Source: Clostridia bacterium
GTDB taxonomy: Bacteria > Bacillota > DAOUPZ01
DNA: 64,000 nucleotides
Reading direction: 5' to 3'
Assembly (NCBI GenBank): GCA_030625885.1
Contig: DAOUPZ010000003.1
Location: 62,001-126,000 of the forward strand
Shown here: piece by piece, positions 36,449-45,010 of the stretch
Position numbering within the stretch: the stretch's first letter is position 1
Layout: every line of letters begins with the position of its first letter
Made by a program: the position numbers and the translations under genes
Notes under the pieces: model-generated
The model's input: only the letters and a program-made list of their open reading frames with translations
Database searches by the model: none
What the model was told of the DNA's origin: nothing

Positions 36449-37321
36449 TTAAAATTTCTCTAATATCTGTAGAACCAGCTTTGCATCACCTACAGGCATA
36501 ATGTGTGTCCCCTGAGTCATTTCCCCAATTTCAAATAAGAATTTCCTCGCAATATCTATGCCTCCCTGGCGCTCCTCTGATTTCATGCGTGACAGGATTG
36601 TTTGCGGAATGTCAATCCCCGGTACATGCTTGGCAAGATATTTAGCCATTTTGTAACTCTTTAACGGTAGTATACCTGCAAGAATGGGAATTTTAAAGCT
36701 TTCCATGCGTTTCATAAATTTTTCCATAATACGCAAATCATAAACAGGTTGGGTTTGCACAAAATGAGCGCCTGCAGCAATCTTTTGTTCTAATCTGTCA
36801 ATTTCCTTTTCCAAATCTTGAGCGCCGGGATTAACAGTGGTTCCAATGTGAAAATGGGTTGCCATATCCAGCTCGTTGCCCATCATATCTTTACCATCAT
36901 TTAATGTTTTTGCAATTTTTATCAAGCCAATAGAGTTAATTTCAAAAATACCTCTGGCTTGTGGATGATCCCCTCTATCGGGTGTATCACCTGTTAAAGC
37001 AAGAATGTTTTTGACCCCTAAGGCTGCTGCCCCTAATAGTTCGGATTGTAAACCAATAACATTACGATCTCGGCATGTTAAATGAAAAATGGTATCAACT
37101 CCTGTATCCCTTTGAATGATATGGGCTAAAGATATGGGACTCATACGCATATTGGCCATAGGACTATCCGCGATATTTACCGCTGCTACTTTTGGGGATA
37201 CCAAATTGGCTTCTTCAACTGTCTTGCTGATATTCATACCTTTGGGTGGATCTAATTCTACAGTGACAACAAATTTGTTAGCGTGAAGGGCTGTTCTTAA
37301 GTTGTTAATGTTGCCTTCCAT
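36449..37321 (-). CDS. metF: Methylenetetrahydrofolate reductase
   Basis: 290 residues, full MetF length. FVVTVELDPPKGMNISKT, HLTCRDRNVIGLQSELLGA, ILALTGDTPDRGDHPQA and GAHFVQTQPVYDLRIMEKF are the characteristic FAD/folate-site segments. It reduces 5,10-methylene-THF to 5-methyl-THF, the methyl donor for MetH encoded directly upstream (17-base gap). No MetV-type partner is present here. RBS GGAGAGGACTGAATA. Last gene of the SAM-riboswitch operon. Confidence 0.92.
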   Translation of the reverse strand: MEGNINNLRTALHANKFVVTVELDPPKGMNISKTVEEANLVSPKVAAVNIADSPMANMRMSPISLAHIIQRDTGVDTIFHLTCRDRNVIGLQSELLGAAALGVKNILALTGDTPDRGDHPQARGIFEINSIGLIKIAKTLNDGKDMMGNELDMATHFHIGTTVNPGAQDLEKEIDRLEQKIAAGAHFVQTQPVYDLRIMEKFMKRMESFKIPILAGILPLKSYKMAKYLAKHVPGIDIPQTILSRMKSEERQGGIDIARKFLFEIGEMTQGTHIMPVGDAKLVLQILEKF

Positions 37322-37338
37322 TATTCAGTCCTCTCCTC

Positions 37339-39750
37339 TCAGAATGAAATTTTTCTTGTTAGTCGTTTAGCCAACGCAACGGCTTCTACTGCATCATGTG
37401 AATAATGTGCGCCAATCGATTTTGCATATTCAACATTGACGACGGCTCCTCCTATCATCACATCAATGGGTTTTCCTAATACACGTAAATCTTCCATAAC
37501 ACGACCCATTTCTGGCATGGTGGTTGTCATTAAGGCACTTAAACCAATGATTTTGGCATTTTCTCTTACAGCTGTTTGAATAATAAGATCTGTCGAAACG
37601 TCTTTCCCTAAATCAATGATGTTAAACCCGTGATTTTCCAACATCACGGAAACAATATTTTTGCCAATATCATGTATATCCCCTTTGACAGTCGCCATCA
37701 CGATGGTATCCTTCTTTATACTTCTATCAGATGTCATTTCCATCTTCAAGCGCAAAAAAGCTTTTTTCATTGCTTCTGCAGCTAACATAAGCTGTGGTAA
37801 AAAATATATCTTTTCTTCATATTTCTTTCCAACCAGTTCTAATGCAGGTATGAGGTATTGATTGATTAAGTCAAGCGGTTTTTGTCCCAATGCTAATTCT
37901 GCTTCAATAGATCCTACAATATGATCTTTATCACCTTCAAGGATCCCTTTAAATAAAGGATGAGCGTGTTTTTCCGATTTGTCTAGTGAACTTTTTGGAC
38001 TTTTCGCTAAGGTAGAGGACTTAGCTGACGTTTCAGCAGGTTCCCATTGGATAAAATATTGACCGTGTATATCACGATTATTAAGAACATCCGCTGCTTT
38101 CATTGTATTGATCATATCATCATGATAAGGATTTAATATGGGTAAATTCAGACCGTTGCCTAAAGCCATGGCTAAATAGGTTGCATTTAATAATTCTCGG
38201 TGAGGAAGACCATGAGACACATTGCTTACGCCAAGTATAGTTTTAACACCAAGCGCTTCCTTAATTAATTTCAATGTTTCTATTGTTTCTATCACTAATG
38301 ATTGCTGTGCGCCAGCCGTTAAAACCAAACAATCAATAAAAATATCGTCTCGGGCAATTCCAAATTTTAAAGCGCGGTTAACAATGTGACGTGCCACTTC
38401 CAAACGTTCATTTGCTGTTCTGGGAATACCATTTTTGTCTAGTGTTAATCCTAATATGCTCGCTCCATATTTTTTGGCTAAAGGTAAAATGTGTTCCAGA
38501 CTTTCTTCATGCCCATTGACAGAGTTAATGAGCGGTTTTCCGATAAAAGCTTTCAAACCTGCTTCCAGAACTTCGGGTTTAGTAGAATCAATGGCAATGG
38601 GTACGTCAACTAACCGTTGAATTTCTTCAATGGCTTTTGTCATAACAACCGCTTCATCAATATTCGGAACACCCATATTTACATCCAGTATGGAAGCGCC
38701 TGCTTTCACCTGTCCCCGAGCTTCCTCGCAAACGAGACTCATATCCCCCTGAACAATAGAACGAGCCAATTTTTTTCGGGCAGTGGGGTTTATTCTTTCT
38801 CCAATAAATTGAGTCGGAAAAGTTGAGCCGATACAAACGATTTTGCTGCGACTGGCCAGTTTAGAATAAGATATCTCTTTCTTAGGTGTCATGATCTGTG
38901 AATGTGCTGCGCTGGCAATGGCCTCAATATGATCCGGTGTCGTCCCACAGCATCCGCCAATAATATTTGCACCTGCCTGAATAAAAGGTTTCACATAACA
39001 TGCCATTTCATCTGGGGTCTGTTGAAACACCGTATTACCATTGATGAGTTGAGGCAGTCCTGCATTAGGTTGTGCAATTAGAAAAGCGGTGGTTACTTTT
39101 GCCATTCTTTCGATGATCGGTACCATATTTTTTGGCCCGCTGCCACAATTAACGCCTATGACGCTTGCCCCAAGAGATTCTAATACCGTTGCTGTTGTTT
39201 CCGGGTTCGTACCAGTTAATGTTCTCATATCTTCTGAGAAAGTCATCTGTGCAATAATCGGTAAACCTGTTGCTTCTTTAGCAGCAATTAATGCGATCCG
39301 CATCTCCTGAAGGTCAGACATTGTTTCAATCGCAAGCAAATCTGCTCCCGAATCGCCCAATACTTTAGCTTGTTCGTAGAACACATCGTACGCTTGATCA
39401 AAAGTCATTTTTCCCAAAGGATGAATGAGCTTCCCTAAAGGTCCAATATCTCCTACGACCATCGTTTCTCTTCCAGCTGCTTTACGGGCAAGTTGTATCC
39501 CAGCACCATTAAAACGTTTCACTTCGTGTTCCATGCCAAACTCGGATAGCTTGATGCGATTAGCACCAAATGTATTTGTTTGTATCAAATCTGCGCCAGC
39601 CTCTACATAGGCTCGATGAATATCAATAAGCATTTCCGGATGAGAGATATTTAAGCTTTCGGGACACTGGTTAAGTTTCAACCCGGATTTTTGTAACATA
39701 GTACCCATCGCGCCATCATATACCAATATTTTATGGCGTAACCTTTCCAA
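37339..39750 (-). CDS. metH: Cobalamin-dependent methionine synthase, without activation domain
   Basis: 803 residues: homocysteine methyltransferase domain (1-300; zinc ligands in VIGVNCGSGPKN and GGCCGTTPDHIEA), pterin-binding domain (~320-590; GERINPTARKKLA, ILDVNMGVPNIDEAV), and B12 domains (~620-800) with GDIHDIGKNIVSVML carrying the cobalt-binding His. The fourth domain of E. coli MetH, which reactivates oxidised cobalamin with SAM, is missing here and is encoded by the preceding gene. I start at TTG 6 bases after AAGGAG; an upstream TTG is the alternative. Confidence 0.92.
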   Translation of the reverse strand: MERLRHKILVYDGAMGTMLQKSGLKLNQCPESLNISHPEMLIDIHRAYVEAGADLIQTNTFGANRIKLSEFGMEHEVKRFNGAGIQLARKAAGRETMVVGDIGPLGKLIHPLGKMTFDQAYDVFYEQAKVLGDSGADLLAIETMSDLQEMRIALIAAKEATGLPIIAQMTFSEDMRTLTGTNPETTATVLESLGASVIGVNCGSGPKNMVPIIERMAKVTTAFLIAQPNAGLPQLINGNTVFQQTPDEMACYVKPFIQAGANIIGGCCGTTPDHIEAIASAAHSQIMTPKKEISYSKLASRSKIVCIGSTFPTQFIGERINPTARKKLARSIVQGDMSLVCEEARGQVKAGASILDVNMGVPNIDEAVVMTKAIEEIQRLVDVPIAIDSTKPEVLEAGLKAFIGKPLINSVNGHEESLEHILPLAKKYGASILGLTLDKNGIPRTANERLEVARHIVNRALKFGIARDDIFIDCLVLTAGAQQSLVIETIETLKLIKEALGVKTILGVSNVSHGLPHRELLNATYLAMALGNGLNLPILNPYHDDMINTMKAADVLNNRDIHGQYFIQWEPAETSAKSSTLAKSPKSSLDKSEKHAHPLFKGILEGDKDHIVGSIEAELALGQKPLDLINQYLIPALELVGKKYEEKIYFLPQLMLAAEAMKKAFLRLKMEMTSDRSIKKDTIVMATVKGDIHDIGKNIVSVMLENHGFNIIDLGKDVSTDLIIQTAVRENAKIIGLSALMTTTMPEMGRVMEDLRVLGKPIDVMIGGAVVNVEYAKSIGAHYSHDAVEAVALAKRLTRKISF

Positions 39751-39806
39751 TAATGTCTCCTTGTTCAAAGGTTATCAATCCTTTCGTTAATAATAAAGGT
39801 AAGTGG

Positions 39807-40496
39807 TCAACTGCCTTTCTCATATTCACAATTTTGCTGTAAGCATTTATCACATGGATTATAATTGTGATTATCATTTACAATCCGCTTCCAACCGATT
39901 ACGGCTGTAATGGATTTTTGCGGATTGAGCATATAATGCTCTGTCATAGAAATACCAATTCTTTGAATGTCTAATAGATCCAATAAATCTTTTTGTGCGG
40001 TTATATCCCACTGGCCATAACCGGGACTAAATCTTTGTGTTAATTGATATCCTTTTTGAGCGGCCTCTTGCGCGACGATATGGTTTATTTTATTTGCTAA
40101 TTGTTCGATGCCATCTGAACCAATCGCATCAAGAATCGTTGCTCGTGTATATTCTCCCTGATCGAAAAAACAGGTGATTTTTTCGTCCAATGATTCTCCC
40201 AATGTCACTGCTAAGAAGGTTAAATAATCAGAACCCAAAAATAAGTTCACAACATCCGGTGCAGTAATATAGAAATTTTTGTGTGATGTAATAATCCTTT
40301 TATTGTCCTTTGTCGTTAATGGAATCGTTTTGAATATCCCTTGCGGCTTGAGCCAGGTATACGATTCATTAATTAATTCGTCGATGGTTGCGCTTATATG
40401 ATTCGTTATTTGCGTCTTGTTTTTTCGATAACCTAAATAGCGCAGTACCTCATCTTTGTTGATAGACAGCGGTATATCACGTATGATTTGTGTCAT
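39807..40496 (-). CDS. Stand-alone methionine synthase activation domain
   Basis: 229 residues resembling the C-terminal SAM-binding activation domain of MetH, as a separate polypeptide. DKITCFF.. precedes RATILDAIGSDGIEQLANKI, and the SAM-binding segment RFSPGYGQWDI (near residue 163) matches the RxxPGY motif. It ends with NPCDKCLQQNCEYEKG, a C-x2-C-x4-C cluster that might bind metal and is not part of the fused domain in E. coli. It would deliver a methyl from SAM to reactivate cob(II)alamin on the MetH encoded 56 bases downstream. RBS AAAGGGAAATAAT. Confidence 0.85.
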   Translation of the reverse strand: MTQIIRDIPLSINKDEVLRYLGYRKNKTQITNHISATIDELINESYTWLKPQGIFKTIPLTTKDNKRIITSHKNFYITAPDVVNLFLGSDYLTFLAVTLGESLDEKITCFFDQGEYTRATILDAIGSDGIEQLANKINHIVAQEAAQKGYQLTQRFSPGYGQWDITAQKDLLDLLDIQRIGISMTEHYMLNPQKSITAVIGWKRIVNDNHNYNPCDKCLQQNCEYEKGS

Positions 40497-40517
40497 ATTA
40501 TTTCCCTTTCATATGCC

Positions 40518-41240
40518 TTAACTGTTTACAAAACAAATGTCTCCCCAGGCACCCATTTTATCACCGATGATGATAATAACGCCTTTAATCCCCACAATGG
40601 ACTGGGCAAAAGTAATACCCTGTTCAATATCTGCTGCTGTTTTAATCATGTTTCCGGTTGCCGTCGCTGCGGCATCCGCTAAAGCTGTATTTTTTGAAAC
40701 AACAACGACTGCATCTGCCTTGCCAAAGCTCAAGGAAGGCCCCACGGTTCCAGCGGAAGTGCAGATTCCTAAAGGGGTATCTTCAGGCTTAATCTTTAAA
40801 GCTATTTTCTGATTGAACGGAGAGGTTCCCGCAAAGATACTGATCCTGCGCACGGTATTGCTTTTGATAAATAGATCTCCACCATTTTCGACAATGATTT
40901 CCGGTGAAAAGGATAGCAATTCTTTACCAACGGCTTCTGAAATAGCGCCTGCTACGGCTGCCATAGGACCAACATTTGTCATTTTGGCAGCTTCAGCCAT
41001 TGTTTTTATAATAGACGGTGCCTCTTCATTGACAGGTGAAGGGGTCAAGCTTGTTTTAAATTGAGGATGAGATCGAATATAGCACTCAATTTGCCGGCGA
41101 TAGTGTTCAATGGCAGTTTTTGCCTCTGACTCCAGTAAACGATGAGCCCCGATTTGTAAATCTGTTTCTTGTTCTTTTACATTAAAATATGTCAAGTTTT
41201 CACCTTTTACCTGATTGCGGTAAGTTCGTTCCTTATACAT
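40518..41240 (-). CDS. UPF0280 / COG2122 protein of sulfide-to-homocysteine assimilation
   Basis: 240 residues of the UPF0280 (ApbE-related) family: TNVGPMAAVAGAISEAVGKEL, IIVENGGDLFIKS, LGICTSAGTVGPSLSFGKADAVVVVS, and ADAAATATGN. A Methanosarcina member of COG2122 (MA1715) was reported to support efficient sulfide assimilation together with DUF39 and NIL-ferredoxin proteins (recalled from the literature). The same trio is consecutive here. Its exact chemistry is unknown; the ApbE kinship hints at a flavin- or thiol-related step. RBS AGGTGGCGGAATAAC. Confidence 0.8.
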   Translation of the reverse strand: MYKERTYRNQVKGENLTYFNVKEQETDLQIGAHRLLESEAKTAIEHYRRQIECYIRSHPQFKTSLTPSPVNEEAPSIIKTMAEAAKMTNVGPMAAVAGAISEAVGKELLSFSPEIIVENGGDLFIKSNTVRRISIFAGTSPFNQKIALKIKPEDTPLGICTSAGTVGPSLSFGKADAVVVVSKNTALADAAATATGNMIKTAADIEQGITFAQSIVGIKGVIIIIGDKMGAWGDICFVNS

Positions 41241-41259
41241 GTTATTCCGCCACCTAAAT

Positions 41260-41670
41260 TTAGATTGTTATATGTATGACATCCAAGGGGCAAGCCTTAA
41301 CACACAGTTCACAGGCTAAACATTTCTCACTATTAAAGTTCAGTCTCCATGTACTAGAATCCAATTCAAATGCGTGCGAGGGACAAACAGCCGTACAAGC
41401 ACCACAATGGACGCACTTTTCTTCATCCCATTGAATATTTTTCTTCATTAATGTCACATCAATGCCTTGCTCAGTTAGAAAAATGAGTCCCTGTTCCACT
41501 TGTTCTTGCGTTTGCCCTTTGAGTTCAATTACTAACTTTCCTTCTTCATGATGGGTTATTTTTCCTCTTAAAATATTAATTTGTAATTCAAAATCTTTAA
41601 CTAAGTAATACGTAATGGGTTTATCAATTAAAGCTGGGGGGAAAACTAATAAAACTTTTACAGCGAACAT
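41260..41670 (-). CDS. NIL domain plus 2[4Fe-4S] ferredoxin
   Basis: 136 residues. The N-terminal half is a NIL domain (VKVLLVFPPALIDKPITYYL; also found on methionine ABC transporters, where it senses methionine). The C-terminal half holds two 4Fe-4S motifs, CVHCGACTAVCP and CLACELCVKACP. In Methanosarcina a protein of this design (MA1822) works with the DUF39 protein in making homocysteine, presumably giving electrons. It overlaps the upstream DUF39 gene by 13 bases, so the two are translationally coupled. RBS GGAGGAAAAAGAAGC. Confidence 0.88.
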   Translation of the reverse strand: MFAVKVLLVFPPALIDKPITYYLVKDFELQINILRGKITHHEEGKLVIELKGQTQEQVEQGLIFLTEQGIDVTLMKKNIQWDEEKCVHCGACTAVCPSHAFELDSSTWRLNFNSEKCLACELCVKACPLDVIHITI

Positions 41671-42845
41671 GCTTCTTTTTCCTCCTTCAGTTTAGAATTT
41701 AATACATGACTTTCGTGGCTTTTAGGTAAACCTTGCACCGGTTCAGACAATAGGAAGCTTCCTGCCTGAATCCATTGTTTCAATTCAAGAGCCACTTCTC
41801 GTGCCTTAGCTAAACTGGATAATGGAGCTGTTGGAATCTTCTTATTCCCAATGGTAATACTGCCGCTGCGTAACTGCTGATAATTGACCTGTTTGATCAC
41901 TGGCTTGCTCCGCTTTGGAATACTATAATCAATAATATCAGTATAAATATCTGCATCTGTTACACAGACGGATCTCAGCATTTCAATATCTAATATGGGA
42001 ATGGGAATCCCTAATCCCACAAACATGGTAATACCATAGGATTCGAAAGATGCGGCTCGTATAAATCGAGCATCCATTTCTTTTAAATTGCCGATCAGCG
42101 AAAGTGTCCCTGCTGGTCCTTTGGGTACACCGTTTTCTCCGCGGGAATTTGAAGGACTATGCTGAGTGCCTTCCCATGATACAAAGCCTTGTGTCCCTCC
42201 AAGAAAAATACGGGTGCCAATGCCAATGGTACGGTAAAAAGGATCATTGAGAAGCGGACTTAGCTGCCCGGCACTAGAATAGGTTACATTTCCCATATGA
42301 GGCAGCAATGTTCCCATATACGTATATAATGTGCGTTCTGATGTATTGGTGGCCGCATCATAGTTTTGATAAGCATTTCGCGGGTTAAACAAAAAAGCTT
42401 GATTGATGTCATCTTTGGTAATATATGTTGTAATTTCCCTTCGTGGATAGCAATCCGTCGGATGAGCAATAGCCCGCAGCTTAACCGATTTTCCCAAAAT
42501 TAAATCCTCTATGACATGAGCCCCGCCATAGTCTTCACCTTCTATTTCTGAGGTTTCTGTCGCACCAATAAATGCATCCACAGCTGCCAGTCCCGCATAA
42601 GCTGGAACATCATTCAACCATACTTTACTCATTCTAATAGGTGGATCCGCGTGACCGAAATTAAGAAAGGCACCTGTAGAACACATAGCCCCAAAAGTAG
42701 CCGTTGTTACCACATCGACCTCTTTTGCAACGGCTTCCTCCCCTTTTTCCTTTACTAAATCAATGATCTCTTCTGCGGTCACCACCACAGCTTTTCCCGA
42801 TTTAATCTTTTCATTGATTTCGTCATACGTTTTGCAAACACTCAT
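41658..42845 (-). CDS. DUF39 homocysteine biosynthesis enzyme (aspartate-semialdehyde sulfurtransferase type)
   Basis: 395 residues of DUF39 (COG1900). Cys55 in GAMCSTGAFLNFGHADPPIR and Cys132 in HPTDCYPRREITTYI correspond to the two cysteines reported as essential in M. acetivorans MA1821. Family role: sulfur is placed on aspartate semialdehyde and reduced to homocysteine without O-acyl-homoserine. The archaeal protein has a C-terminal CBS pair; this one does not. I choose the ATG after AGGAGAGAGCAAT. It is the first gene of the operon, behind a SAM-I riboswitch. Confidence 0.85.
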   Translation of the reverse strand: MSVCKTYDEINEKIKSGKAVVVTAEEIIDLVKEKGEEAVAKEVDVVTTATFGAMCSTGAFLNFGHADPPIRMSKVWLNDVPAYAGLAAVDAFIGATETSEIEGEDYGGAHVIEDLILGKSVKLRAIAHPTDCYPRREITTYITKDDINQAFLFNPRNAYQNYDAATNTSERTLYTYMGTLLPHMGNVTYSSAGQLSPLLNDPFYRTIGIGTRIFLGGTQGFVSWEGTQHSPSNSRGENGVPKGPAGTLSLIGNLKEMDARFIRAASFESYGITMFVGLGIPIPILDIEMLRSVCVTDADIYTDIIDYSIPKRSKPVIKQVNYQQLRSGSITIGNKKIPTAPLSSLAKAREVALELKQWIQAGSFLLSEPVQGLPKSHESHVLNSKLKEEKEACSL

Positions 42846-43121
42846 ATTGCTCTCTCCTTTCAATTATCTTGTTTTTCATATAATCAATACAAATTGTATA
42901 AAACAGAAAAACATCTTTGCTAACTTTTAAAGGAAGAAAATTAATATAATGCATGGCATTGTTATGGCGGAAGACAGCTTGTCGCGTCGGTGGATTCATC
43001 AGAATCAAATATTAAAGACGCTGCTTCATGAGTAATGACTTTATATATTGCACAAAGTTCTTTAGCTTAGAAGGTGTCTGGAGCCATAACGATGCCTAAG
43101 CACAAACTTTCATATAAAAAC
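42846..43121 (-). other. 276-base leader between riboswitch terminator and DUF39 gene
   Basis: This leader is unusually long. On the minus strand 43114-42962 reads as a 51-codon frame interrupted once by TAA (parts: SLCLGIVMAPDTF, then AKELCAIYKVITHEAAS), which looks like a decayed gene fragment. There is no RBS. The last 70 bases are AT-rich with the DUF39 RBS. No other structure seen. Confidence 0.4.
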
Positions 43122-43156
43122 AAAACCCCCTCTTCTAAATAAGAAGAGGGGGTTGA
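43122..43156 (-). terminator. Terminator of the SAM riboswitch (DUF39-metF operon)
   Basis: AACCCCCTCTTCT / AGAAGAGGGGGTT around a short loop, followed on the minus strand by TTGTTTTTATA. The bases CCTCTTCTTAT at its 5' side are exactly complementary to ATAAGAAGAGG at the 3' end of the riboswitch P1, giving a visible antiterminator for the SAM-free state. Confidence 0.9.
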
Positions 43157-43177
43157 AATATCATCGAATTTGATCCT

Positions 43178-43288
43178 CTTCTTATCTCTCAGAGCATATG
43201 AGCTCTGCAGGAATTAGCACCTTTGCAGAATAATCTGCTGGTTGCTGGGTTTCATAGGGCCAGTCCCTCCACCACTCTGGATAAGAAG
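43178..43288 (-). promoter_or_regulatory. SAM-I (S-box) riboswitch upstream of the homocysteine/methionine operon
   Basis: On the minus strand: P1 CTTCTTATC..GATAAGAAG, then AGAGTGGTGGAGGGACTGG, CCCTATGAAACCC, GCAACC, GGTGCTAATTCC and GAGAGAT, the conserved S-box blocks in order. SAM binding should stabilise P1 and let the terminator at 43122-43156 form, switching off the DUF39-to-metF genes when SAM is plentiful. Confidence 0.95.
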
Positions 43289-43309: not shown

Positions 43310-44677
43310 TTATCTTCCCCAAACATTACCTCTGTTATCTAAAATACGCTTAGCTTTATGCGTAACACGCGGAAGCGTATCCGGTTCTAAAATATGAACT
43401 GCGGCTGAAACAGCAACGGATTTTTTGATGTCTGTTTGAACAGCTTGAGCCAGTTCTTCAATATTCCCTGTATATCCTTCTACATATTCTACTTCAACTG
43501 TCAATGTATCCAAATGATTAACACGGTCAACAACCAAACGATACTCTCCAGTTAATTCATGATAATGACGTATAATATGCTCAATATCACTAGGAAATAC
43601 GTTAACGCCTTTAATAATCAGCATATCGTCTACCCGGCCGTGAACGCCATCAATACGCAAAGAAGTACGGCCACATTCGCAGGTTTTGGTTGTATAGGAA
43701 ACGATATCGCCCGTGCGGAACCTAATGAGCGGGCGCGCTTGTTTTTTCAAAGTCGTTAATACCAGTTCACCTCGTTCACCATCCGCTACCTGTTCACCTG
43801 TTTCAGGATTGATGACTTCAACAAGAATTTGGTCTTCGGCAAAGTGGCAGCCGCTCTTTTCTTCACATTCTGCAGCACAGGAACCAAAAATGTCGGAAAT
43901 ACCATAATAGTCATAAACATCCGCATCCCAAAGATTTTCAATACGACGTCGCGTTACTTCGATGGAGCCGCCCGGCTCGCCACATACAAATATCTTATTA
44001 ATATTAAGGTCTTTTGCAGGATCAATACCCTTTTTTTGTGCTGTTTCGCCTAAATACCATGCATAGGACGGCGTTGTCCAGATAATGGTAGGTTGAAATT
44101 GTTGCATAAGTGCTAATAACCGCTCAGATGGAATTGTGCCTGCATGAATTGATAAAGCACCCAATTTTTGTGCCCCGTATACACAAGGTCCTCCAACAAA
44201 CATGGAAAAATTAAGCGCATGACAGTAACGATCTGTGGGTCTCATACCCGATGACCAGAAAATACGGGATTCAAAGTCAATCCAGTCATCAAAATCTTTT
44301 TGCGTAAATGGAGATGCCGTAGGGGAACCTGTTGAACCACTGGAAGCGGAAATATAGACAATTTCCTCTTCTGGTACGGCTACCATCGTTCCAAATGGCG
44401 GTGCCTCATCTTGACATGCACGAATAACTTTTTTATTGCTAAATGGCAACTTTTTGATATCGTCTAAAGTTTGAATGGTATCGGGATTAATCCCCTGTTC
44501 ATTGAATACGCGATTATAATACGGGGAATTATGATAGGCATGTGCTACCATATCTTTTAATAATTCTAATTGTAAAGCTTCAAGTTCTTTACGAGGCATG
44601 GTTTCTATTTTTTCATCCCAATATTTTGGATAAGATTTTTTACTTTGTTCTTTCTTTTTTAATTGTTCAAATGACAT
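43310..44677 (-). CDS. Phenylacetate-CoA-ligase-like AMP-forming ligase under SAM control
   Basis: 455 residues of the PaaK/COG1541 adenylate-forming family: YISASSGSTGSPTASPFTQKD (P-loop-like ATP motif), YDYYGISDIFGSCAAECEEKSGCHFAE with a Cys/His metal-like cluster, ARPLIRFRTGDIVSY, and RVDDMLIIKGVNVFPSDIE near the C-terminus. It would activate a carboxylic acid with ATP and CoA. No indolepyruvate:ferredoxin oxidoreductase or phenylacetate genes are nearby, and the gene sits behind its own SAM-I riboswitch, so the acid is probably connected with methionine or sulfur metabolism (inference). RBS GGGAGGAAAATGAT. Confidence 0.85.
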   Translation of the reverse strand: MSFEQLKKKEQSKKSYPKYWDEKIETMPRKELEALQLELLKDMVAHAYHNSPYYNRVFNEQGINPDTIQTLDDIKKLPFSNKKVIRACQDEAPPFGTMVAVPEEEIVYISASSGSTGSPTASPFTQKDFDDWIDFESRIFWSSGMRPTDRYCHALNFSMFVGGPCVYGAQKLGALSIHAGTIPSERLLALMQQFQPTIIWTTPSYAWYLGETAQKKGIDPAKDLNINKIFVCGEPGGSIEVTRRRIENLWDADVYDYYGISDIFGSCAAECEEKSGCHFAEDQILVEVINPETGEQVADGERGELVLTTLKKQARPLIRFRTGDIVSYTTKTCECGRTSLRIDGVHGRVDDMLIIKGVNVFPSDIEHIIRHYHELTGEYRLVVDRVNHLDTLTVEVEYVEGYTGNIEELAQAVQTDIKKSVAVSAAVHILEPDTLPRVTHKAKRILDNRGNVWGR

Positions 44678-44731: not shown

Positions 44732-44760
44732 AAAACCTCTTCTACATGAGAAGAGGTAAT
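44732..44760 (-). terminator. Terminator of the second SAM riboswitch
   Basis: ACCTCTTCT / AGAAGAGGT with loop followed on the minus strand by TTTTCTTTTTATA. Its 5' arm CCTCTTCTCAT can pair in 9 of 11 positions with ATGAGTTGAGG at the riboswitch 3' end, as an antiterminator. Confidence 0.85.
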
Positions 44761-44802: not shown

Positions 44803-44912
44803 AACTCATCTCCCAGAGCGTATGAGCTCCGCAGGAATTGGCACCTTAGCAGAATAATCTGCCGGTTGCCGGGTTTCATAGGGCCAGTCCCTCCACCTCT
44901 CTAGATAAGAAG
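44803..44912 (-). promoter_or_regulatory. SAM-I (S-box) riboswitch upstream of the PaaK-like gene
   Basis: Minus strand: CTTATC..GATGAG for P1, GGTGGAGGGACTGG, CCCTATGAAACCC, GGCAACC, GGTGCCAATTCC, GGGAGAT. It is nearly identical to the element at 43178, including the variable stem GCAGATTATTCTGC, so the two are likely recent duplicates. Confidence 0.95.
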
Positions 44913-45010
44913 AAAATATATCTTATAAAGTTTTTAAATTGATTAGTATTCATTTTACATGATTGCATTCATAATGTCAAGATGTTTTTTCCTTTTCCTA
45001 CACCTATTAT

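Follow-up and report, generated by a model that had tools for sequence, protein, structure and literature searches.

A putative homocysteine-to-methionine operon behind SAM-I riboswitches in a Clostridia bacterium

Gene content of the locus

We analyzed a stretch of 64,000 nucleotides (nt) from a Clostridia bacterium of the phylum Bacillota (assembly GCA_030625885.1, contig DAOUPZ010000003.1, positions 62,001 to 126,000; hereafter the window), in which a set of methionine-related genes lies behind a riboswitch of the S-adenosylmethionine (SAM)-sensing SAM-I class. Following this element (riboswitch 1) on the minus strand are, in order, genes for HcyBio, a NIL-ferredoxin, a UPF0280 protein, a protein resembling the MetH activation domain, MetH and MetF (Table 1). 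The HcyBio gene overlaps the NIL-ferredoxin gene by 13 nt, and the subsequent intergenic gaps are 19, 21, 38 and 17 nt. The original prediction, made from the sequence alone, had assigned these six families and described the genes as consecutive on one strand behind a SAM-I riboswitch; profile matches agree with the family calls, and the gene order and the RF00162 match agree with the arrangement. It had overlooked a second SAM-I riboswitch (riboswitch 2) and a PaaK-like ligase gene directly upstream.

Table 1. Features of the locus, with positions in the window
Feature	Positions	Strand	Support
MetF, methylenetetrahydrofolate reductase	36449..37321	-	PF02219
MetH without activation domain	37339..39768	-	S-methyl_trans (homocysteine), pterin and B12 modules
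MetH activation-domain-like protein, separate gene	39807..40496	-	PF02965; 1j6r at 2.2e-13
UPF0280/COG2122, putative sulfur-delivery protein	40518..41240	-	NF003323, PRK04334, 315 bits; solved homologue 2o34
NIL domain plus two 4Fe-4S, putative electron-supplying subunit	41260..41670	-	PF09383
HcyBio/DUF39/COG1900a, putative L-aspartate semialdehyde sulfurtransferase subunit	41658..42845	-	PF01837, 528 bits
Intrinsic terminator of riboswitch 1, 13-bp stem	43124..43154	-	Antiterminator formed by aptamer P1 3' strand and terminator 5' arm
SAM-I riboswitch aptamer 1, before HcyBio	43179..43287	-	RF00162, 100.6 bits, E 3.4e-23
PaaK-like AMP-forming acyl-CoA ligase	43310..44677	-	Family matches; own subfamily, 56-62% identity
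Intrinsic terminator of riboswitch 2	44735..44757	-	Alternative antiterminator duplex, -16.3 kcal/mol
SAM-I riboswitch aptamer 2, before PaaK-like gene	44803..44911	-	RF00162, 93.4 bits
Promoter-like site TTGACA-17-TAAAAT, upstream of riboswitch 2	44952..44980	-	11/12 consensus positions

The HcyBio gene likely starts at the ATG at 42845, which is served by the ribosome-binding site AAAGGAGA, and a TTG at 42863 is disfavoured. Its product spans PF01837 completely (positions 1-349 of 349), and a profile search of the protein found no CBS domain. Numbered from this ATG, Cys55 and Cys132 match Cys54 and Cys131 of the Methanosarcina acetivorans protein MA1821, a correspondence drawn from published positions rather than from an alignment of MA1821 itself; in MA1821, Cys54 is reported as essential and Cys131 as auxiliary. 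The two cysteines, characteristic of L-aspartate semialdehyde sulfurtransferase (L-ASST), are kept in 188 and 194 of 197 homologues, respectively, and the partner NIL-ferredoxin and COG2122 genes adjoin HcyBio in the window. In nine cyanobacterial homologues (L122, L123, L126, L129, L130, L132, L133, L134 and L136), the essential catalytic Cys is replaced by Glu, and neither NIL-ferredoxin nor UPF0280 was found next to them; these nine proteins probably have a different function. Two further homologues (L228:8659-10089 and L135:7029-8405) are fused to a C-terminal 4Fe-4S ferredoxin, and no stand-alone NIL-ferredoxin gene was found in their vicinity; the L228 fusion also lies behind a SAM-I element. 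The fold was dropped as a clue to mechanism: the AlphaFold2 model of the window HcyBio (me5956ff17dc4) is confident, with a predicted local distance difference test score of 95.7 and a predicted template-modelling score of 0.92, yet no PDB fold matched it at E 0.001 or better, so that by this test the modelled fold appears to be unsolved.

The methylation branch resembles the split MetH represented by the solved structure 1j6r, in that the window MetH lacks the activation domain and a separate 229-residue protein matches 1j6r. It differs in that only about 120 residues align and that the window version sits in an L-ASST operon.

Riboswitches and promoter

Both aptamers cover all 108 positions (1-108) of the RF00162 covariance model and score well above its gathering score of 44.4 bits, and both are followed by the antiterminator/terminator platform of SAM-I (S-box) riboswitches. 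When the leader of aptamer 1 is folded in silico only as far as the middle of the terminator, the 3' strand of P1 pairs with the 5' arm of the terminator (-17.8 kcal/mol for the antiterminator duplex), whereas the full leader folds into the aptamer P1 and the 13-bp terminator. Mutual exclusion of antiterminator and terminator is thus clear for aptamer 1, but it is imperfect for aptamer 2. The departure from a standard SAM-I arrangement is that the window has two copies with the ligase gene between them. Because 97 of their 109 bases (89%) are identical, variable loop included, whereas the genome's two remaining strong SAM-I elements differ, the two aptamers are probably duplicates of each other. 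Those remaining two elements stand before genes for a MetN-like transporter and a permease, and a weak SAM-I-like match (L316; own genome C26:5977-6057) scores 36.4 bits, below the gathering score.

The best promoter-like site on the minus strand lies just before aptamer 2. It is the placement of this site that makes it credible, since the region holds 34 promoter-like sites, two of them at 11/12, where shuffles expect 29. Between it and aptamer 1 nothing exceeds 9/12, a level that shuffles reach equally, and only 22 nt separate the end of the PaaK-like gene from aptamer 1. Because a strong promoter-like site is found only before riboswitch 2, the two SAM gates may work serially on one transcript. 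The leader from the terminator of riboswitch 1 to the HcyBio start (42850-43120) is about 270 nt long, and aptamer 1 stands about 334 nt from the HcyBio ATG, compared with a median of 86 nt in relatives. Tandem SAM-I aptamers also occur in a Peptostreptococcaceae metagenome-assembled genome (L081:444-716), about 1.3 kb upstream of a HcyBio-UPF0280-MetF-MetHact-MetH cluster.

Homocysteine routes in the genome

The original prediction saw no metA, metB, metY or cysK in the window and proposed a search of the complete genome. Across the assembly (98% complete, 39 contigs), we found no known rival route to homocysteine: there is no MetA, no MetX and no true pyridoxal phosphate (PLP)-dependent enzyme of Cys/Met metabolism (PF01053). 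The best PF01053 score is 42.6 bits, for a protein that reads as cysteine-desulfurase-like, and when applied to 14 named control genomes, the same searches gave matches in 8 to 14 of them. The cysK part of the statement did not extend beyond the window, as two cysK (cysteine synthase) genes lie elsewhere in the genome. There are also two matches to PF02774, a family that holds both aspartate-semialdehyde dehydrogenase and ArgC, and a threonine synthase gene is present elsewhere in the window.

Distribution of the riboswitch-pathway pairing

Pairing of SAM-I with the HcyBio pathway is common in the phylum. HcyBio occurs in one third of the sampled genomes (133/399), and among 120 fetched loci, UPF0280 is nearby in 118 and NIL-ferredoxin in 116. 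In 92 of the 120, HcyBio is preceded on its own strand by a SAM-I element (73 within 700 nt and 19 farther away, where MetH often intervenes), whereas 23 of the remaining loci lack one in 400 nt or more of upstream sequence. Most of these genomes contain no more than one to a few SAM-I elements in all, so that chance does not account for the pairing. A terminator-like hairpin follows within 200 nt of SAM-I in 84 of 88 close cases, compared with 79 of 440 mononucleotide shuffles (18%). In a separate set of named contigs, which overlaps the phylum set in part (for example, G226 and L140) and so is not independent of it, all 16 riboswitch-positive loci are of Bacillota or Clostridia types, as titled, and SAM-I is absent from all 19 archaeal and all 9 cyanobacterial HcyBio loci.

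The window locus is therefore one of many. MetH is linked in 32 of the 120 loci, and MetH, MetF and the activation protein occur together in only two, so that the complete gene set is unusual and its core ordinary.

Discussion

We confirm that the operon reported by the original prediction is real, and we read the locus as a SAM-controlled operon for homocysteine and then methionine. It very probably serves methionine synthesis in a bacterium of Bacillota type that has no O-acylhomoserine route and forms homocysteine from aspartate semialdehyde and sulfide under a SAM-I gate. The pathway assignment is well supported, because MetA, MetX and a Cys/Met PLP enzyme are all missing and HcyBio carries both L-ASST cysteines. 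In the model that we favor, the leader RNA would adopt the antiterminator fold when SAM is low, allowing the operon to be transcribed. HcyBio would then convert aspartate semialdehyde and sulfide to homocysteine, with sulfur delivered by UPF0280 and electrons by the NIL-ferredoxin. Methyl-tetrahydrofolate would come from MetF, and methionine from MetH, whose activity the separate activation protein would maintain. At high SAM, the aptamer P1 would be held, the terminator would form and transcription would stop. The upstream gate before the PaaK-like gene is of the same type and probably acts first.

Several points weigh against this reading: the evidence for this organism is computational, a gene could conceivably be missing from the unclosed assembly, the cysteine synthases might have relevant side activities, and coenzyme M synthase belongs to the same family as HcyBio. 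One alternative is that the organism in practice scavenges methionine, or uses a route that escaped detection through a cysteine synthase side activity or unassembled genes, so that the trio of HcyBio, NIL-ferredoxin and UPF0280 is of minor importance. The SAM-I-controlled MetN-like importer, the two cysteine synthases and the gaps in the assembly would all fit such a lifestyle, but the failure to find MetA, MetX or a Cys/Met PLP enzyme and an intact trio in an operon with MetH and MetF make it very unlikely. Even less plausible, to the point of being highly improbable, is that HcyBio produces a thiol other than homocysteine, just as coenzyme M is the product of its paralogue methanogenesis marker 16, and that the MetH/MetF neighbourhood of the gene is incidental. 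Although the protein does match the coenzyme M synthase model TIGR03287 (MMP16), its score of 162.6 bits is far under the curated cut-off of 363.95. Moreover, the inserted ferredoxin domain (Fer4) was looked for in HcyBio and not found, the COG1900a cysteine positions are conserved, and the gene shares an operon with MetH and MetF under SAM-I control.

The original prediction also suggested that the RNA switch had taken over SAM sensing from the enzyme's CBS pair. The window HcyBio indeed lacks CBS domains and no locus carries both CBS and SAM-I, but a replacement is not supported. Pfam detected the CBS pair in four archaeal homologues, and the length of the C-terminal extension points to it in nine more; it was found in none of the bacterial homologues examined, including the many without a riboswitch. 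Because all of these bacterial proteins lack the pair, it is not a defining feature of the bacterial form. In an unrooted tree of FastTree grade, the CBS label requires 2 changes and the riboswitch label about 19, and 76 members have neither. Since CBS pairs were seen only in archaea and the changes on the tree are so unequal, the mutual exclusion is mostly a matter of domain of life, and we regard a shift from protein to RNA as quite unlikely. Protein-level feedback may remain in the operon, because it retains the NIL domain, which is reported to bind methionine in M. acetivorans.

The role of the PaaK-like ligase is a separate question. It scores 358.1 bits against the PaaK model TIGR02155, under the curated cut-off of 646.3, and its sequence marks it as a related ligase of another subfamily, which has five members at 56-62% identity in our sample. 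In one relative's locus (L310) the subfamily ligase is directly followed by a permease, and in another (L311) it clusters with an HpaB-family protein and the permease. The window genome's own copy of this permease, a membrane protein matching no Pfam or NCBIfam family, is on another contig (C25:40439-41812, equivalent to L309:9440-10816) and is also behind SAM-I; a search of the genome for an HpaB-like protein, made without a positive control, found none. We rejected two broader roles. Flanks of about 1.5 kb around 29 relatives of PaaK and 25 of the permease contained no SAM-I element, so these relatives are not general members of the SAM-I regulon. Nor is PaaK a conserved part of the pathway, because, among about 200 HcyBio loci fetched, just one besides the window's has a homologue, about 4 kb upstream and before indolepyruvate-oxidoreductase-like genes. 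It is unlikely to be an accident that a ligase and a permease linked elsewhere are both SAM-controlled in one genome. One speculative possibility, which we consider unlikely, is that they form a new branch for uptake and activation of a carboxylic acid that feeds or spares methionine, with the ligase placed between serial riboswitches.

The pathway itself is already known, and the window locus is a regulated member of it. Genetics in Desulfovibrio vulgaris showed that DUF39, NIL/ferredoxin and COG2122 are needed for homocysteine synthesis without homoserine, and formation of homocysteine from aspartate semialdehyde and sulfide was proposed from methanogen extracts (PMC5764234). Thus, the proposal that the trio makes homocysteine in a bacterium is supported but not new, given the D. 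vulgaris genetics and the presence of HcyBio in one third of the phylum's sampled genomes. The same three families occur in D. vulgaris, but there the genes have widely separated locus tags, and the paper mentions no riboswitch (PMC5764234). The M. acetivorans L-ASST (MA1821/MA1822 and MA1715) likewise combines HcyBio, NIL-ferredoxin and COG2122 and has the equivalent cysteines, whereas the window system is bacterial, has no CBS pair, is joined to MetH and MetF and is under transcriptional SAM-I control. Overall, the original interpretation is partly supported. SAM-I upstream of DUF39/COG1900 was described in no paper that we found in the open-access literature, subscription papers not being searchable. 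Within that literature, the breadth of SAM-I control over the pathway and the two-switch anatomy are new.

The original prediction took the riboswitch as independent evidence for the trio's role in methionine synthesis, and its recurrence upstream of HcyBio extends this RNA-based evidence for the HcyBio, NIL-ferredoxin and UPF0280 families across the phylum. Such evidence matters because automated tools wrongly predicted organisms of this kind to be methionine auxotrophs (PMC5764234). Our survey also supplies many loci under riboswitch control for tests of the enzyme mechanism, which is still unsolved. The serial-gate arrangement and the pairing of ligase and permease add new details that can be put to the test, and if the riboswitches do act in series, the biosynthetic operon would see the product of two SAM gates.
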